This document shows, one piece after another, positions 1,067 through 43,801 of a stretch of DNA of 45,332 bases. The stretch comes from a virus, in IMG/VR virus record IMGVR_UViG_3300032285_001359, positions 1 through 45,332 of that record. One strand, written 5' to 3'. A model generated the notes under the pieces. That model was not told the origin of the DNA. It saw nothing but the letters and a program-made list of their open reading frames with translations, and searched no databases. The stretch's first letter is position 1. Each line of letters begins with the position of its first letter. Position numbers and translations under genes: made by a program.

Positions 1067-1924
1067 TCAGCCCTCCTTTGTCTTTCCAAGAATGAATTCA
1101 GCGGCTTCTTGCGCTTTGCTACTAGCTGAAACGACTAGCTTGCGATCATTCTTGAGAGCTTTAAGCCATGAAGCTATGTAGCTTGCCGAGTTGTCGATTG
1201 TGCGATCCATGATCCCTGCGACATTGCACAAAAACGATGCTCCCATCTCGGCAATCAATTCCTCTTTTGCATAAGTAGAATCTCCAAAGCGAGAGAACTT
1301 CTCTTGCATCCTTCCAAGGCGGCTCTCGTGTCCCGTTGCATGAGTTAATTCATGGAAGAGGGTAGAGTAATAGTTTTCCGCCGTGTCAAAAGTCTCTTTC
1401 TTTGGCATATTCACCCTATCCGCATTGCGCTGATAGTACGCTCTTTGCTCTTCATGCGTTAAAACGGGAGCCTTTGGCATAGAGTTGACAATCCTTTCGC
1501 ATTCTTCGATGGGATTGAACTCCCTAATCGGCAACTCTTCTTTAGGATATTCTAGGCCTTCGCATTGCTCCACGTTAAAGACACGATAGTAACGAAGCAT
1601 CGGAATAGTCTTCTTCTCTCCATCCTTTTCAGAATCGAACATCTTCCAGAATGTCACGAGATGAGACTTTTCCCCTTTCTTTACTTGTCCCCCTCTTTCT
1701 TGCGCTTGCTTGTAGCTAACCCAGTAGGGGGAAGAATAAGAAGCGCAACCCAGTAGCCAAAGATTGATCCCCCTATAGGCCTTGCCACTTGCCAAGTTTC
1801 TGGGAGTCTGACTTGATCCCCCGATCCAAGGTTTATTCCAGGGAACTGTTCCAGCTTCCAGTAGTTCAATGACACGATCAGTTACAATCTGATAGACATC
1901 GACGTTTTCTCTTTCTGTTTTCAT
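1067..1924 (-). CDS. ardC: ArdC-like antirestriction protein with zincin domain
   Basis: This 285-residue protein has the two-part layout of the ArdC family (also annotated DUF1738). The N-terminal ssDNA-binding domain spans about residues 8-125, with the typical PWNKPW, YRGINLWLL and KKGEKS segments. The C-terminal zinc-metallopeptidase-like domain carries HELTH at 191-195 and a downstream EELIAEMGA helix (221-229) supplying a further ligand. ArdC proteins protect incoming phage or plasmid DNA from host restriction enzymes. The gene is first in a leftward operon and faces a control region rich in inverted repeats. It has an A-rich leader without Shine-Dalgarno. The family call is secure; its target enzymes are unknown. 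Confidence 0.93.
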   Translation of the reverse strand: MKTERENVDVYQIVTDRVIELLEAGTVPWNKPWIGGSSQTPRNLASGKAYRGINLWLLGCASYSSPYWVSYKQAQERGGQVKKGEKSHLVTFWKMFDSEKDGEKKTIPMLRYYRVFNVEQCEGLEYPKEELPIREFNPIEECERIVNSMPKAPVLTHEEQRAYYQRNADRVNMPKKETFDTAENYYSTLFHELTHATGHESRLGRMQEKFSRFGDSTYAKEELIAEMGASFLCNVAGIMDRTIDNSASYIASWLKALKNDRKLVVSASSKAQEAAEFILGKTKEG

Positions 1925-2278
1925 TCTGTTTTGTGTTTTGTTTTTTGTGTGCGCTCGGAGATTGTCTCCTTGCTTGTCGCCACAATCTCAAAATAGAGGA
2001 CACGATCAAGAAAAATCTTCACCAACAGAGAAAAATTGTATGATGTCTCGCATTGCAATCATTGTCCCACATCGTCATCACGCTCCCATTCCTGCGCTTG
2101 TCTCATCCTGTAAGACAGGCCAAAAATAGCCACCTCTACCTACCCCTCCCGACTTGCAATCGCTCGATATAGCCAATCCTGGAGCGTCGATTTCCCCCGT
2201 TTCCTCTGTAAGACAATGCAATCATGCCCTTTTCCCTTGTCTTGACAATCTGTGTGACATAGTGTCACCATTTACAAA
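1925..2278. promoter_or_regulatory. Divergent control region with a cluster of inverted repeats
   Basis: These 354 bases separate the leftward ardC operon from the rightward gene at 2279 and hold no convincing gene. Short palindromes with 2-3 base spacers recur: GGAGA-ttg-TCTCC (1957-1969), CCTGT-aag-ACAGG (2107-2119), the related CTGTAAGACA (2206-2215), TTGTC-tt-GACAA (2237-2248) and GTGACA-tag-TGTCAC (2254-2268). A TTGACA (2242-2247) overlaps the fourth. This looks like operator sites at a divergent promoter. The -10 element for the rightward promoter is not obvious. Confidence 0.65.
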
Positions 2279-2806
2279 ATGACACGCCAAAAGAGAGAGA
2301 ACGTAGGAAAACCCCTTCCCGTGGACTGGGAGTCAGTAAAAGCATTTTGGCTTCAATCGGGGAGAGATTATGCCGCAACAAGCGAAGCCTACGGGATAAA
2401 GAGAAACACCCTGGCAAAGCGATTCTCAAGAGATAGCGAGAAGGGCAAAGCCCTAACAACTACCGCCGCACTCAAGAAGATAGAGAGAGCAAAGAAGGAG
2501 CTTGCCGAAGTAGCATGGGAAGATCCTCGACAAGTCACGTTGTCACCTGTTGACGCTTTCGAGAATCAGAAACAGGCTTTTATGGGAGGAATGTCACAAG
2601 GGCTTTCTCGCGCCGCATCCTTTATTGGCTCCATGACAGGGGAAGAGGTTGTTGCGGGATCGCGTGAAGTAAAGAATATCATGGATAGTGGGAAGGCTCT
2701 TTACATGATAGGAGGCGAAACATCATCCGCTTCCGTGTCAATTAACTTGCTTAACATGGACGCGAGTATGTTAGCAGGGCAAGTGAAGGTCATTCCTACA
2801 GAGTAG
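2279..2806 (+). CDS. Helix-turn-helix protein: terminase small subunit or regulator
   Basis: This 175-residue protein has an N-terminal helix-turn-helix (about residues 23-45: a FWLQSGRDYAATSEAYGI helix pair followed by KRNTLAKRF). A charged linker (55-75) and a C-terminal helical and strand region ending in VSINLLNM follow. That layout fits phage small terminases, which bind DNA through an N-terminal HTH and oligomerise, but a transcription regulator is also possible. The gene stands alone, 11 bases after a perfect GTGACA/TGTCAC palindrome, which would suit autoregulation. No Shine-Dalgarno. The large terminase is far away at 37.0 kb. Confidence 0.7.
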   Translation: MTRQKRENVGKPLPVDWESVKAFWLQSGRDYAATSEAYGIKRNTLAKRFSRDSEKGKALTTTAALKKIERAKKELAEVAWEDPRQVTLSPVDAFENQKQAFMGGMSQGLSRAASFIGSMTGEEVVAGSREVKNIMDSGKALYMIGGETSSASVSINLLNMDASMLAGQVKVIPTE

Positions 2807-4737: not shown

Positions 4738-5356
4738 AAGAGGAGATATCCGAGAAGATGGGATGATCTTTTGGGCTTATAAGAAATCATGCAAGAATGG
4801 AGAGAACTGGATAACGCATGATGAATTTTTGCATAAAAGGAATGTGCAGAAAAAATGCAACAACAAATGGTATCTCTCTGATAAAGAAGAAAATTTGAAG
4901 AAAGCAAAATAATGGAAGTGTAAAAATCCAGATAAATGTCTTGATCAAAATAGGCGGTGGAGAAAAGAAAACAAAGACAGAACCAATTTTTTTCAAAGAG
5001 AAAGATATAAAATCAATAAAGATAAAATACAGGAGCAAAATAAAAAGTGGGCAGAAAACAATCCTGTCGCTTGTTATCAAATTAAAGCCAAAAGAAGGGC
5101 GGCAAAAAACGGATGTTATAAAAATTTATCTAAAGAAGAAAAAGAAATTCTTTTAAAATTTTATCACCACGCCAAATTGCTATCTTCTATTCTTGGAATC
5201 CCCCATGAGGTTGACCATATTATCCCTCTTGCCAAAGGTGGGTTACATCACCCCTCAAATTTGCAGGTTATACCAGCTTCAGTAAATAGAAGGAAATCTG
5301 CAAAAACTCCAGAGCAATTTAAAAATTCATTGACCTTTCTAAAGAGAAAGAGGTAA
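4721..5356 (+). pseudogene. HNH homing endonuclease interrupted by one in-frame TAA
   Basis: One reading frame runs from ATG 4721 (or 4724) to TAA 5354-5356 with a single internal TAA at 4910-4912. The part before the stop matches the start of the intact HNH protein at 18184 (KRGDIREDGMIFW versus KRGDVREDGMVFR, then a CNNKW/CNKKW match). The part after it encodes a classic HNH core (EVDHIIPLAKGG, then HHPSNLQVIP and NRRKS). The reading frame is otherwise intact and A/T-rich, unlike its neighbours. This is a recently disabled free-standing homing endonuclease gene, or readthrough or a sequencing error explains the stop. The first fragment alone would be 63 residues without the catalytic site. 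Confidence 0.9.
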
Positions 5357-30319: not shown

Positions 30320-32544
30320 CCAACAATACCAATCAGCCTTACGGCCTCCTAGACCTCGACGAGAATGAGATTCCGAAAACAAGGGTGCAGGATGCAGGTT
30401 CCGCTAGGGCAATGCTCTACACGCTGATTGATGACGATCAGATTGCTTCTTATCGTAGGGCGCAGATCCAAGGTCAGATTGACGGCAACTCCCCCTTTAA
30501 CGATACCCAGCTTAAAGAAATGGGTCAGGGAGATCGGATCAACGTGAACTGGGGTCATGCCGAGGCCAAGATTGAAGCGGCAGTTATCCCTTACTTTGAC
30601 ATTCTCACCTCTGTAGGAAGCTATGCCACAGTCAAGACCAAGTATGGTAAGGACATGGGCAAGCGCGAGGAATGGAGCCGAATCATCACGGAGGAGTTCC
30701 ATCGCCTCCTAGACAAGACCAATCCTAATTTCATCCTCCAGCACCAAGTTGCTCACAAGCAGTTGGTGATTCATGGTCAGGCTTGTATGTTCTGGTCTGA
30801 TGCTATGGATTTCAAGGCTAGGGCAGTTGAGCCTTGGCAGTTGATTGTCCCCAAGGGATCGACTGTGGATTGGCAGAACTGGGAGTTCTGTTACGTTCTG
30901 GACGATATGTATACGGAGGAGCTTTACCGATACATTGAGAACGAAGAAGCCGCCTCCCGTGGAGGATGGGATGTTGAGGAGTGTAAGGAAGCCATCATGC
31001 AGGCCAAGGTGGACGAGCAGGATCAACGCCGTCCTTGGGAGTGGTATCAGAAGGAGTTCAAGAATAACTCGCTCTACTATTCCTACGCCAAGAGCAAGAT
31101 CATCAAGGTGGCTCATATGTATGTGAAGGAATACGATGGTCGTATTTCCCACTATGTCTTTGATCGTCTGAACTCCACCGAGTTCCTTTGCCGCCGCGAG
31201 TCCTGCTACAAGAGCTTTAGCAACGCCTTCACCATCTTCCTAAACGGAGTGGGTAATGGCTTCTATCATGGCGTGAGAGGGCTAGGCCAGAAGGTGTATA
31301 AGTATGCACAGGCTATGGATCGCATCAACAATGCTCTCCTTGAGGGAGTGATTGTGGATAGTGCGGTGATGATCCAGCCGCAGTCTGCCAAGGATGCCGA
31401 GTCTCTCAAGACTGTTCAGATTGGGCCTTATCGCATCCTTCCACCTGGCATGAACTTCGTGCAGGTCGGAACAACCTCCAAGCTGGCAGGAGCCATGCAG
31501 GTTGCCCAGATGTTCCAAGGTCAGGAGAGCGACGATATTGGTAGCTTCATGCCATCCGTTGCTGGAGGCCGCAAGAAGAGCAATAAGGAAGTTGAAGCAG
31601 AGATCGGAGAGAAGAGCCGACTCACCAATACCCGCGCTGAAATCTATCTCCAAGCTCTCGACACTCATTATCGGGAAGTCTATCGCCGTGCATCTAATCC
31701 CAACATCGTTGAGGAAGATCATGGTGGCCCAGAGGCTATTGCCTTCCAAGAAGCTTGCATCAATCGCGGAGTGCCTAAAGCCGCTCTGCTTGATATTGAT
31801 TCAGTCAAGGCAACTCGTAGCATTGGTCAGGGAAGCTCTGCCGCCCGTATGCAGGCTATGGAGCTTATCAGCGAATATCTCCCCCAGCTTCCAGAGAGCA
31901 ATCGCAAGCGGGTTATCAATGCCAACATTGCCGCCATTGCTGGTCAGACAGGAGTGGAGACGTTTGGTATCCCCGAAGAGGAGAAGCCAGAGGGCAACGA
32001 TCTTTCGATTGCTTCCCTTGAGAACAATGCCTTTGCTTCTGGTGGTCAAGTGCTGATTGATCCCGATCAGAACCACTACGTTCATCTCACAGTCCACCTC
32101 CAGTATGCAGGAAGTATCGTGGAGGCCGTGCAGAGCCAGAAGGAAGATCCTCGCAAGGCCGCTGTTACTATGCAGGCCGCGATCCCGCACATCCTCACTC
32201 ACCTCAAGTATCTGGAGGAAGACCCGACTCGCAAGGAGCAGTTTGATAATCTCAATGAGCAGACTAGCGAGTTGATGAAGATTGCCGATCAGTTGAACAA
32301 ACTGGCAGAGCAGATCAACGAGCAGGAGCAAGCTCAACAGCAACAGCAGAACCAGCCGCAAGATCCGAAGATGGCAGTTGCCCAGAATAAGATCATGCTG
32401 GATCGGGCGAAGGCTCAAAACGATATGCAGATTAAGGCCGCAAAAACTCAACATCAGCTTGCTCTTAAAGACAAGCAAATGGCACAGAGGCTTATGATCG
32501 ACAAGGTAAAATTAGCCTCTAAATACAGCACAATAGCTCCATAA
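30316..32544 (+). CDS. Portal (head-tail connector) protein, 742 residues
   Basis: Length and sequence fit a podoviral portal: an N-terminal helical region with a DDQIASYRRAQIQGQIDG start, a beta-rich core with YKSFSNAFTIFLNGVGNGF (about 299-317) and the GLGQKVYKYAQAMDRINNALLEG long helix (about 324-346), then an IGEKSRLTNTRAEIY helix. The C-terminal Gln/Glu-rich coiled coil (about 650-735, with AEQINEQEQAQQQQQNQ) is typical of the barrel or disordered tail. It forms the ring for DNA entry and binds terminase. Its stop overlaps the start of the HNH gene (taATG). No Shine-Dalgarno. Confidence 0.8.
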   Translation: MTNNTNQPYGLLDLDENEIPKTRVQDAGSARAMLYTLIDDDQIASYRRAQIQGQIDGNSPFNDTQLKEMGQGDRINVNWGHAEAKIEAAVIPYFDILTSVGSYATVKTKYGKDMGKREEWSRIITEEFHRLLDKTNPNFILQHQVAHKQLVIHGQACMFWSDAMDFKARAVEPWQLIVPKGSTVDWQNWEFCYVLDDMYTEELYRYIENEEAASRGGWDVEECKEAIMQAKVDEQDQRRPWEWYQKEFKNNSLYYSYAKSKIIKVAHMYVKEYDGRISHYVFDRLNSTEFLCRRESCYKSFSNAFTIFLNGVGNGFYHGVRGLGQKVYKYAQAMDRINNALLEGVIVDSAVMIQPQSAKDAESLKTVQIGPYRILPPGMNFVQVGTTSKLAGAMQVAQMFQGQESDDIGSFMPSVAGGRKKSNKEVEAEIGEKSRLTNTRAEIYLQALDTHYREVYRRASNPNIVEEDHGGPEAIAFQEACINRGVPKAALLDIDSVKATRSIGQGSSAARMQAMELISEYLPQLPESNRKRVINANIAAIAGQTGVETFGIPEEEKPEGNDLSIASLENNAFASGGQVLIDPDQNHYVHLTVHLQYAGSIVEAVQSQKEDPRKAAVTMQAAIPHILTHLKYLEEDPTRKEQFDNLNEQTSELMKIADQLNKLAEQINEQEQAQQQQQNQPQDPKMAVAQNKIMLDRAKAQNDMQIKAAKTQHQLALKDKQMAQRLMIDKVKLASKYSTIAP

Positions 32545-37010: not shown

Positions 37011-38702
37011 ATGAAGCTCCAAACCTACGGGCTGGACTTGAGTGCATTTCCAAAGGCAACGCAACTAGAGGTTGAGTTGCTGATGGTGAAAGATCCCGAT
37101 CCAAGTCGTTTCAGCGGCTTGAGTCGGGGTCAGCATATCAAGCACGTTCTCACCATGCTTTGGCCTGACGTAATGTCTCGCTGGAATGATTGGAACGAGC
37201 TTGCGTTGTGGGCATGGACGAACTACGACGAAATTGGAGTCACGGGATGCGCGGCGGCAGGAAAGACCTTTACGTTCACTTTGCTATCGCTTGTGGAGTT
37301 TCTAGCTTGTCCTATGGGGACTCGTATAGCCCTAACCTCTACCACAGTCCCTTCCCTGCGCGGGCGTATCTGGGCAGAGATGATGAAGTTCGTGCGCCCT
37401 GTGCATCCGTTGTTTGGGCTAAATGTGGTGGACTCGCAGACGAAGATCCAGTTCCAGAAGGGAGATGACCGCTCTGCAATCATAGCCCTTGCAGTCGATA
37501 GCGGAGCGATTGAGCAAGCTGTGGGTAAGTTGCAGGGTGTTCACATCCCCCGTGTGGTGATCGTTGCTGACGAAGCGGCGCAGACTAACCCAGCTATCTT
37601 CTCTGCCAGGGCCAACCTTGCCGTTGGTACGGACTTCTATCGCTTTATTGCTATCGCCAACGCATCATCGCAGTTTGACCCTCATGGGTTATTCTGCGAA
37701 CCCAAGATGGGATGGGGATCTATCCAAGATGATGATGAGTTTTGGGAAACCAAGACGGGAGTGTGCGTGAGGTTTGATGGGCTGAAGTCACCCAATGTGA
37801 AAGCGGGACGCTTAATTTATCCATACCTTTTTGGGCAGGACAACATTGATACGATTGCCAAGAATTTTGGTATTGGAAGTCTTGAATGGAACAGTTATGT
37901 GAGGGGGATGTGGTCGCGCTCTGGAGCGAGAAACACGATCCTCGACCAAGCCATGATCAACGAGGGCCGCGCCCGTGAGAGCGTCACTTGGGCTGGAGGA
38001 GGCATCAAGCAGATAGCCGCTCTTGACCCTGCATTCACGACTGATGGCGATGATTGTATCCTGCGCTTTGCCAAGGTGGGCAAGGCTCTTGACGGCGATC
38101 TTATCATCGAATGCGGCGACATCGTGCGACTCACGCTCACGGAAAGCGAGAACTACCCACTCTTCTACCAAGTGGCAGACCAGACCATCGCAGAGCTAAC
38201 GAGGCGCAACATTCAGCCAGAGGACTTTGCTATTGACGCGACAGGCGCAGGAGCAGGCATAGCCGACATCATCTCACAACGCTGGAAGACAGGCTTTGTA
38301 CGAGTGAGCTTTGGAGGAGGTGCTACGGAGCATCCTATCTCCATTGAAGATGATCGTCCCGCAAAACAAGTCTACGCCAATCGCGTGAGTCAACTCTGGG
38401 GACAGATCCGCACGATCATCATGGCTGGAAGGATGCGTGGGCTAGATGACCAGACTAGCCGAGAGCTATGCGCTCGTATCTACACTCTCAAGAACGAGAA
38501 GATGCTCCTTGAGAGCAAGAAGGATTTGAAGAAGCGCACGAAAGGAAATTCGCCTGACAGAGCGGATGCCTTGGCGTTGCTTGTAGAAGTGATGGTGACG
38601 AACTGGGGGCTTGGGAACAGCGTGGGGAGCCTTGCAGATTCAGATTCTGACTGGGATTCTTTTGTGCTTGCAAATCAGTTGGAGTCTACCTACGACTCGT
38701 AG
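37011..38702 (+). CDS. terL: Terminase large subunit (ATPase and nuclease)
   Basis: The ATPase domain has Walker A GCAAAGKT (79-86) and Walker B VVIVADEA (182-189). The C-terminal RNase H-like nuclease has acidic residues in ALDPAFTTDGDD (Asp339), AIDATGAG (Asp409) and SPDRADALALL (Asp516 or Asp519). It cuts concatemeric DNA and pumps it through the portal. At 563 residues it has the usual length. The gap before it (36902-37010) holds a hairpin and no gene. No Shine-Dalgarno (CCAATTTATG). Confidence 0.95.
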   Translation: MKLQTYGLDLSAFPKATQLEVELLMVKDPDPSRFSGLSRGQHIKHVLTMLWPDVMSRWNDWNELALWAWTNYDEIGVTGCAAAGKTFTFTLLSLVEFLACPMGTRIALTSTTVPSLRGRIWAEMMKFVRPVHPLFGLNVVDSQTKIQFQKGDDRSAIIALAVDSGAIEQAVGKLQGVHIPRVVIVADEAAQTNPAIFSARANLAVGTDFYRFIAIANASSQFDPHGLFCEPKMGWGSIQDDDEFWETKTGVCVRFDGLKSPNVKAGRLIYPYLFGQDNIDTIAKNFGIGSLEWNSYVRGMWSRSGARNTILDQAMINEGRARESVTWAGGGIKQIAALDPAFTTDGDDCILRFAKVGKALDGDLIIECGDIVRLTLTESENYPLFYQVADQTIAELTRRNIQPEDFAIDATGAGAGIADIISQRWKTGFVRVSFGGGATEHPISIEDDRPAKQVYANRVSQLWGQIRTIIMAGRMRGLDDQTSRELCARIYTLKNEKMLLESKKDLKKRTKGNSPDRADALALLVEVMVTNWGLGNSVGSLADSDSDWDSFVLANQLESTYDS

Positions 38703-38740: not shown

Positions 38741-38938
38741 ATGAGAAGACCCCGACCATTCGGACAAACGCATTCATGTGAATGCGGCAAGGACACGGAG
38801 ATTGTAGTGTATCCCTACATCCCAGCCATAACCTCGCATCAATACGAGGACAATGAGGAAGCAGAGGGAGGCTACTGCGATCCAGAGGAATGCCCAGAAT
38901 GCGGATGCGGAATTGACTACGAGGACTACGCAGAATGA
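38741..38938 (+). CDS. Small cysteine-rich protein, 65 residues
   Basis: The product MRRPRPFGQTHSCECGKDTE... has four or five Cys in zinc-ribbon-like spacing (SCECGK near 12-17, then YCDPEECPECGCG near 45-57) and an acidic C-terminal end. It overlaps the Mom-like gene by four bases (ATGA), so the two are probably translated together and could be functionally linked. No family recognised. Confidence 0.6.
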   Translation: MRRPRPFGQTHSCECGKDTEIVVYPYIPAITSHQYEDNEEAEGGYCDPEECPECGCGIDYEDYAE

Positions 38939-39609
38939 ACTGGTCTGTGCATCAGATCACATTTCGAGATGCAGAGCCTTGGCTTTTGAAAAAGCATTAC
39001 GCCAAAAGGATTCCTCCAGTATCTTATGCCTTTGGCGCATTCTTTGATAAATCCTTGATCGGAATAGTTACATACGGAACTCCCGTTTCATCATCTCTTC
39101 GTGAGGGGGTTTGTGGAAAGGAGTATGCTGATTATGTGATTGAGCTTAATCGCCTGTGTTGTGAAAGCACTAAAAACCTAGCTGGGTTTTTAATATCAAA
39201 TTCATTAAAACTAATACCTCGACCAAAGATCGTTGTTAGTTTTGCTGATACTGCACAAGGCCATGTTGGATATGTTTATCAAGCAACCAACTTTGTTTAC
39301 ACGGGGTTGAGCGCAAAGAGAACAGATTGGAAAATCAAAGGCGAAGAGCATCTTCATGGAGCTACTGTAGCAGACAAATTCAGAGGAGTTGAAAACATGG
39401 CGCAAGCTCTCCGAGATAAATATGGAGATGACTTTTATTTAGAGGATAGGCCAAGAAAGCACAGATATATTTATTTTATTGGAACAAAAAAAGAAAAGAA
39501 AAAGATGAAGCAATCTCTTAAATATCAGATTGAAGAATACCCGAAGGGGGAATCGCAAAGATATAATGCTAGCGCAAAAATAAACACACAAATGCTACTA
39601 ATCAATTAA
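38935..39609 (+). CDS. mom: Mom-like DNA modification protein
   Basis: This 224-residue protein shows the layout of the Mom family: an N-terminal HYAKRIPPVSYAFGAFF (21-37), then IGIVTYGTP (42-50), YVIELNRLC (67-75), VVSFADTAQGHVGYVYQATN (100-119) and a downstream YTGLSAKRTDW. Mom of phage Mu is a GNAT-like enzyme that converts adenine to N6-methylcarbamoyl-adenine (shown for Mu) and blocks host restriction. The C-terminal 60 residues are Lys-rich. The assignment rests on motif recall; the substrate group in this phage is inference. Mu's transcription activator com was not recognised, although the adjacent Cys-rich 65-residue gene (38741) is Com-like in size. Confidence 0.85.
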   Translation: MNWSVHQITFRDAEPWLLKKHYAKRIPPVSYAFGAFFDKSLIGIVTYGTPVSSSLREGVCGKEYADYVIELNRLCCESTKNLAGFLISNSLKLIPRPKIVVSFADTAQGHVGYVYQATNFVYTGLSAKRTDWKIKGEEHLHGATVADKFRGVENMAQALRDKYGDDFYLEDRPRKHRYIYFIGTKKEKKKMKQSLKYQIEEYPKGESQRYNASAKINTQMLLIN

Positions 39610-43639: not shown

Positions 43640-43801
43640 ATGAAAAACAAAACCAGTCAGTCAGTCCGTATCTACAACCACCTCGTTAAAGGCAAGAGCC
43701 TCACGGCAATCGAAGCTCTCAAGAAGATGGGCATCCGCATCACAACCACCACTAAACATAACCGCAAAACTGGCAAGAAATTCGCCTGCTATTCCATCTA
43801 A
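43640..43801 (+). CDS. Small helix-turn-helix protein, 53 residues
   Basis: ATG 43640 (AATAATATG leader). The product MKNKTSQSVRIYNHLVKGKS, then LTAIEALKKMGI and RITTTTKHNRKTGKKFAC, has the layout of a small phage helix-turn-helix protein (KG-x-LT-x-x-EAL-x-x-x-GI followed by a basic wing, as in Pfam PF14090-type domains). It could bind DNA as a small regulator, for example at the inverted repeats near 1957-2268. That link is a hypothesis. Confidence 0.65.
   Translation: MKNKTSQSVRIYNHLVKGKSLTAIEALKKMGIRITTTTKHNRKTGKKFACYSI

Follow-up and report, generated by a model that had tools for sequence, protein, structure and literature searches.

The divergent gap between ardC and the HTH gene at 2279 raises the question of whether its five palindrome-like elements form one operator array, as had been proposed in the preliminary description, and, if they do not, what the separate parts of the gap serve. 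The gap (354 nt) lies in a virus record of 45,332 nt (IMGVR_UViG_3300032285_001359), and this whole stretch of DNA is referred to as the window; ardC runs leftward from 1924 and the HTH gene rightward from 2279. Because the window carries a 123-nt end repeat, a circular map was adopted. This repeat, and one of 127 nt in the relative G006, are of the assembly type and fit either a circular map, as expected of a circularly permuted, terminally redundant genome of the headful type, or an assembly overlap.

Five relatives, all uncultivated phages, were picked up through the 2279 and 3704 proteins, namely G001 (L005, 42.6 kb), G006 (L042, 44.9 kb), G007 (L044, 44.4 kb), G008 (L052, 44.5 kb) and G009 (L051, 20.5 kb). 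Together with the window, six genomes (∼242 kb in total) were compared. G001 was syntenic with the window across most of the genome, and the layout of a leftward gene, a gap of 350–520 nt and the HTH gene was kept in all. Since the six lineages share a common ancestry, their sites are not fully independent. Contig L038, retrieved with TTGTCTTGACAATCTGTG, was discarded as an unrelated contig with a chance 19-mer.

Palindromes of the divergent gap

The coordinates and letters of all five elements were correct as first described. Four of them are perfect palindromes with arms of 5–6 bp, namely GGAGA-ttg-TCTCC (element 1, 1957–1969), CCTGT-aag-ACAGG (element 2, 2107–2119), TTGTC-tt-GACAA (element 4, 2237–2248) and GTGACA-tag-TGTCAC (element 5, 2254–2268), whereas element 3 (2206–2215), also presented as an inverted repeat, has arms of only 3 bp. 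Their clustering was clear in terms of GACA/TGTC words, of which the gap contains 12 against 4.6 expected (matched by 0 of 1000 shuffles), but marginal in terms of palindrome density. Four palindromes with arms of at least 5 were counted in the gap, where shuffled sequence gave 1.3 (P = 0.04), 7.7% of the same-size stretches of the window were equally palindrome-dense, and palindromes of the types of elements 2, 4 and 5 were not in excess in the window. It is these near-chance figures that speak for the whole cluster being accidental; the cross-genome statistics of GTGACA and TGTAAGACA and the conserved leader, all given below, speak against it, and we consider it highly improbable. The palindromic form of element 4 is still put down to chance.

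The claim of one recurring half-site fails because the order of the half-sites differs between elements: element 4 reads TGTC..GACA and element 5 GACA..TGTC, elements 2 and 3 share TGT..ACA, and element 1 is built from GGAGA/TCTCC. A multi-site repressor operator would show one half-site in one geometry, at sites confined to the promoter; here elements 1, 2/3, 4 and 5 differ from one another, and GTGACA is also found inside and behind the gene. With differing half-sites and orders, and with no excess of the element-type palindromes, a single operator array was rejected, although element 5 has the appearance of a conserved site for protein binding at the 2279 promoter. Judged from the sequences, the true array is that of GTGACA, which reaches inside and downstream of the 2279 gene. 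A view of elements 2–5 as non-conserved, drawn from G001 alone, was overturned by the further relatives. The motif comparison with related phages, which had been suggested as a check, splits the gap into distinct parts, in that GTGACA and TGTAAGACA recur and the element 4 palindrome does not.

The leftward leader and the nine-letter motif

The leftward gene and the region in front of it comprise the following features:

1067–1924, minus strand: ardC, anti-restriction protein, the first leftward gene (Pfam ArdcN 1.7e-34, MPTase-PolyVal 2.4e-40; phrog_7245 6e-80)
1925–1955, minus strand: A/C-rich stretch of the ardC leader, without a Shine-Dalgarno sequence, conserved in G001, L042, L051 and others
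1957–1969, minus strand: element 1, predicted to fold as a stem-loop in the leftward 5′ leader, with pairing stems in seven leaders
1982–2009, minus strand: likely leftward promoter, TTGATC (2009–2004), 16 nt, GATTGT (1987–1982), read by eye, weak consensus

When the window and G001 were compared by blastn, positions 1932–1975 were the sole part of the gap that aligned (86%). The leader consists of a short stem-loop followed by the A/C-rich stretch up to the start codon. The stem-loop could be drawn in all six lineages and again before a second leftward gene of G006, which gave seven leaders. As expected of a structured 5′-leader RNA, the stem was kept through changes on both sides; stem sequences varied among the seven leaders, the type of pair changing at a given stem position, and pairing was retained. 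The loop reads AAUNNC in four of the seven. The z-scores of the leaders relative to shuffles were −1.1 to −4.2 and summed to −6.6, for a small set in which the stems were chosen per sequence and aligned by hand (a MAFFT alignment misplaced them). An Rfam search of the window gave no match for element 1. An intrinsic terminator at 1957, listed by the scan, was rejected because no real T run follows it on either strand. The conserved pairing stem-loop in the leftward leader thus identifies element 1 as a predicted 5′-leader RNA hairpin of the opposite transcript, and not as an operator of the HTH gene. Upstream of this leader we infer a leftward promoter from two hexamers of weak consensus, ∼16 nt apart, which are similar in most relatives.

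Each phage has its own first leftward gene, and ArdC was found only in the window. ArdC had no match in G001, and neither ArdC nor the leftward proteins of G001 and G006 had a match in the G007–G009 loci. Pfam gave no match for the swapped leftward genes of the other phages (L005, L042, L044, L051, L052), the regions upstream of ardC in ArdC relatives (L006–L028) did not resemble the gap, and a search of viral contigs with the leader pattern recovered only the known relatives. The slot behind the conserved leader looks as if it takes in accessory, perhaps anti-defence, genes. A Mom-like DNA modification protein (38935–39609; phrog_1384, 1e-55) is, with ArdC, a second likely anti-restriction function of this phage. 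The constancy of the leader, with a variable gene behind it, may be of use in the search for anti-defence genes in these phages.

Elements 2 and 3 lie further to the right, upstream of the 2279 gene, which is the probable terminase small subunit gene (terS) discussed below:

2109–2117, plus strand: TGTAAGACA copy 1, inside element 2, one of six copies in the six genomes, none of them outside the gap
2207–2215, plus strand: TGTAAGACA copy 2, element 3, likewise confined to the gap

Element 3 matters despite its 3-bp arms because the 10-mer that makes it up, CTGTAAGACA (2206–2215), is the same as in element 2. All six copies of the 9-mer TGTAAGACA in the six genomes were located in the gap, of which it is the top 9-mer (log10 P −17.6). 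It was found in four of the six lineages, in either orientation, 72–222 nt upstream of terS, and it is absent from G001 and G008. In the relatives, the 9-mer is kept without the outer arms that make element 2 palindromic (e.g., CTTGTAAGACACG in G006); by this comparison, elements 2 and 3 are a motif distinct from element 5 and essentially asymmetric.

The TGTAAGACA copies would be the sites of another, separate putative regulator. One such regulator might be a late-gene activator that switches on the terS promoter, like the Ltr/RinA-type regulators in Gram-positive phages. Late regulators have their binding sites in repeats ahead of packaging genes (PMC13123087), and the restriction of TGTAAGACA to the gap upstream of terS in four lineages agrees with such a role; its varying orientation and copy number, its loss from two lineages and the fact that no activator gene was identified weigh against it. 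We regard a late activator as a plausible guess at well under even odds, and it can hold together with the packaging-signal explanation given below.

GTGACA and the probable small terminase gene

The rightward half of the gap and the gene that follows it contain:

2237–2248: element 4, covering the likely −35 TTGTCT (2237–2242), a palindrome only in the window
2254–2268: element 5, an inverted pair of GTGACA sites covering the likely −10 (TAGTGT 2260–2265 or CATAGT 2258–2263), with TGACA-N3-TGTCA also at the G008 and G009 promoters
2279–2806, plus strand: probable terS, 175 aa, N-terminal HTH, orthologues matching phrog_1206
2541–2546, minus strand: GTGACA site inside terS, an internal site being present in six of six lineages
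2592–2597, minus strand: second GTGACA site inside terS, from the GTGACA listing
2904–2993: GC-rich, conserved stretch of non-coding DNA downstream of terS, with GTGACA at its end (2988–2993), a candidate packaging cut region

The last element ends 10 bases ahead of 2279, as had been noted. Element 4 does overlap a TTGACA, but this hexamer lacks a −10 at the usual distance; the best promoter pair was the weak TTGTCT(2237)-N17-TAGTGT(2260). The promoter scan found no 9/12 site on the plus strand here, and the promoter calls rest on register and a weak consensus. The element 4 palindrome was not found in the five relatives. Its right half falls within TTGACAATCTGT (2243–2254), of which ACAATCTGT is common to the operators of G008 and G009. 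The centre of TTGACAATCTGT is 11 bp ahead of that of element 5, and it may be the decayed remnant of a further operator copy.

The motif TGACA-N3-TGTCA occurred in four copies in the six genomes, one in a G007 coding sequence and the others at the promoters of the window, G008 and G009, where it covers the likely −10 in all three. The full element 5 palindrome is absent from the promoter in G001, G006 and G007; at this place G001 and G006 retain one half-site (TGTCAC), and G007 has TGTCAT. G006 is without the palindrome although its HTH helix closely resembles that of G009. A perfect palindrome of L042, GTTCATT-TTTG-AATGAAC, ∼60–43 nt upstream of its HTH start at 4983, stands where the other phages have the terS promoter and may be a replacement operator.

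An unbiased 6-mer ranking was performed on the terS regions (−60 to +820) of the six genomes, that is, 5.3 kb against the remaining 237 kb. GTGACA ranked first by far, with 23 copies in the former and 17 in the latter (log10 P −32). For 17 other orthologous genes, mostly better conserved, the best log10 P was −5 to −15; the extremes of this control fell at genes 90–99% identical, compared with just 41–48% identity (tblastn) for the 2279 proteins. The prediction made from the window held in each of the five relatives (P = 1.2e-5, 2.5e-4, 3.9e-4, 1.0e-5 and 2.9e-6), and both genomic copies of G007 are near terS. In the window, GTGACA/TGTCAC has only 8 copies, 5 of them within 2254–2993. The enrichment was ∼60-fold for GTGACA against at most 8-fold for its one-letter variants, each of which is more frequent than GTGACA outside the terS regions. 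There, the 17 observed copies compare with 33 (maximal-order Markov) or 83 (first-order) expected, whereas within the terS coding sequence 9 were observed against 0.2 expected.

The sites are located at the promoter, at +206 to +262 in the gene, in some lineages also at +313 to +361, and 120–233 nt behind the gene, where they mark the 3′ end of the GC-rich block. The GC-rich block (GACGGGCACC...TTTTTCCTAAAAATCCCC..GTGACA), which could be aligned in eight contigs, is 80–89% identical over the shared part in most lineages and is among the best-conserved non-coding stretches near terS. The first internal GTGACA of the window is 7 nt off the position in the relatives and uses other codons, which suggests that the internal site is under selection at the DNA level. 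The constant V86 GTC codon was discarded as evidence for the internal site, given that the window's own site is 7 nt further on. A headful pac site of the SPP1 type would be placed at terS, overlap its promoter and carry short repeats specific to it; here element 5 sits on the likely −10, more sites are found within and behind the gene, and GTGACA is a repeat of this kind.

Two proteins had been suggested as the binder. The small winged HTH protein at 43640 (43640–43801) is unlikely, since the window copy is without DKFGCFRLAARIAEL, 15 residues across the HTH core that are present in G001, G006, G008 and G009; among the genomes compared, only the window showed this in-frame deletion. The favoured candidate is the 2279 protein, which looks like a small terminase and not like a plain repressor. 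The PHROG terminase small subunit family phrog_1206 was matched by four of the six orthologues (best 1.2e-8), over the N-terminal 55–85 residues only, and the G007 orthologue matches the annotated TerS of HK639, SEN34 and Klebsiella phages (E 1e-3 to 2e-2). The window protein itself gave only weak DNA-binding matches and a poor match to TerS families. The 2279 gene is thus probably terS, as far as the HTH half is concerned and, for the window protein, by orthology. In the AlphaFold model of TerS (pLDDT 55.5), a three-helix HTH (17–53) was fairly confident and the rest poor, so that the model was of too low a quality to assign a fold such as the ring-forming one of a small terminase. The fold search with this model gave no significant match, and its top PDB neighbours (not significant) were a Myb-like domain and PrrA; the DNA-binding domain of SF6 TerS is reported to be closest to hTRF1 and PrrA (PMC4737164). 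A host search of genome contigs with the TerS alignment as query gave no match.

The large subunit candidate is at a distance from this locus:

37011–38702, plus strand: probable large terminase gene (terL), from its motifs and weak tblastn matches to annotated terminases

Its protein contains GCAAAGKT, VVIVADEA, ALDPAF, IDATGAG and DRADAL, which we take to be the ATPase and nuclease motifs expected of TerL; its AlphaFold model (pLDDT 37) was too poor for fold assignment. Adjacency of terS and terL is usual, not universal, and the two probable genes are ∼10.5 kb apart on the circular map.

Based on these data, we propose, at about even odds, that GTGACA is the word by which TerS recognises a pac-like signal, one that overlaps the terS promoter. 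The gap would be a divergent control region of two separate halves, the rightward one being part of the packaging signal and the leftward one comprising a promoter and the stem-loop leader of element 1 ahead of a phage-variable gene, ardC here. TerS would recognise GTGACA and, bound to the promoter, gene-internal and block sites, would gather the DNA and bring the large terminase into place, and the first cut would follow within or close to the GC-rich block. Once abundant, TerS on the −10 would shut off its own promoter, and the locus would switch from transcription to packaging.

The palindrome over the −10 in three lineages and the N-terminal HTH of the 2279 protein could also be those of a plain autorepressor, with element 5 as operator, the other GTGACA copies as auxiliary operators and no role in packaging. 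This appears unlikely, as every lineage has sites within the gene and ∼180 nt behind it, the last of them in the conserved GC-rich non-coding block, and the family matches are to terminase small subunits. Alternatively, GTGACA could serve another protein, which might be a nuclease of the phage (e.g., the HNH endonuclease encoded at 32544), a host factor, or an initiator of replication from an origin close to terS. The GTGACA binder is a candidate only, and clustered short sites also occur at origins; against this, terS lies at the centre of the cluster and contains part of it in six of six lineages, the spacings are irregular, not iteron-like, and we judge a different binder improbable.

Comparison with known packaging systems

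We put forward, tentatively and at rather less than even odds, the wider view that this phage family uses a strict, genome-scarce hexamer as a dual TerS code, in which the promoter sites would silence terS and the sites in the gene and GC-rich block would mark the packaging start, and that the same gap holds a fixed promoter and RNA-hairpin cassette taking in accessory genes such as ardC. How small terminases select viral DNA is an unsettled question, and GTGACA would offer a direct, testable recognition code. A hexamer of this type would also be a route to the computational finding of packaging sites in uncultivated phages.

In lambda-like cos and PaP3 TerS-cos systems, TerS sites adjoin terS, like the putative ones here, a GC-rich block is present, and in HK639 and SEN34, whose TerS resembles the G007 protein, terS is at the left end of the deposited records. 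The fixed genome ends expected at a lambda-type cos site left no sign here, as far as metagenome contigs can show them; the end repeats of the window and G006 are of the assembly type, and the linear contigs do not end at the terS locus. The pac site of phage P1, a lead only, likewise has short hexanucleotide repeats, located within and near its gene for the small terminase; its word and arrangement are different.

The Ltr/RinA/Alt activators of Gram-positive phages, with repeats upstream of packaging genes (PMC13123087), are a model for the TGTAAGACA copies, whereas in these phages no such activator was identified and the copies are few and of varying orientation.

The closest parallels were found with SPP1/SF6 pac and gp1. 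The SPP1 pac overlaps the terS promoters (PL1/PL2), the RBS and the start of terS (gene 1) (PMC6316719), and the complex of TerS with pac reportedly reduces motor-operon transcription (PMC4737164). A pac over the terS promoter and gene start, repeats and lowered transcription would thus be shared features (PMC6316719, PMC4737164). The host group and proteins differ, and the cut region proposed here is a candidate from sequence. Moreover, SF6, the best-studied pac-type TerS, shows little sequence specificity in vitro (PMC4737164), and its recognition is described as largely sequence-independent, whereas in the present phages a strict hexamer is placed at the promoter, in the gene interior and in the downstream block. 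If true, the novelty would lie in a strict word that is scarce elsewhere in the genome, instead of the shape-based recognition described for SF6.
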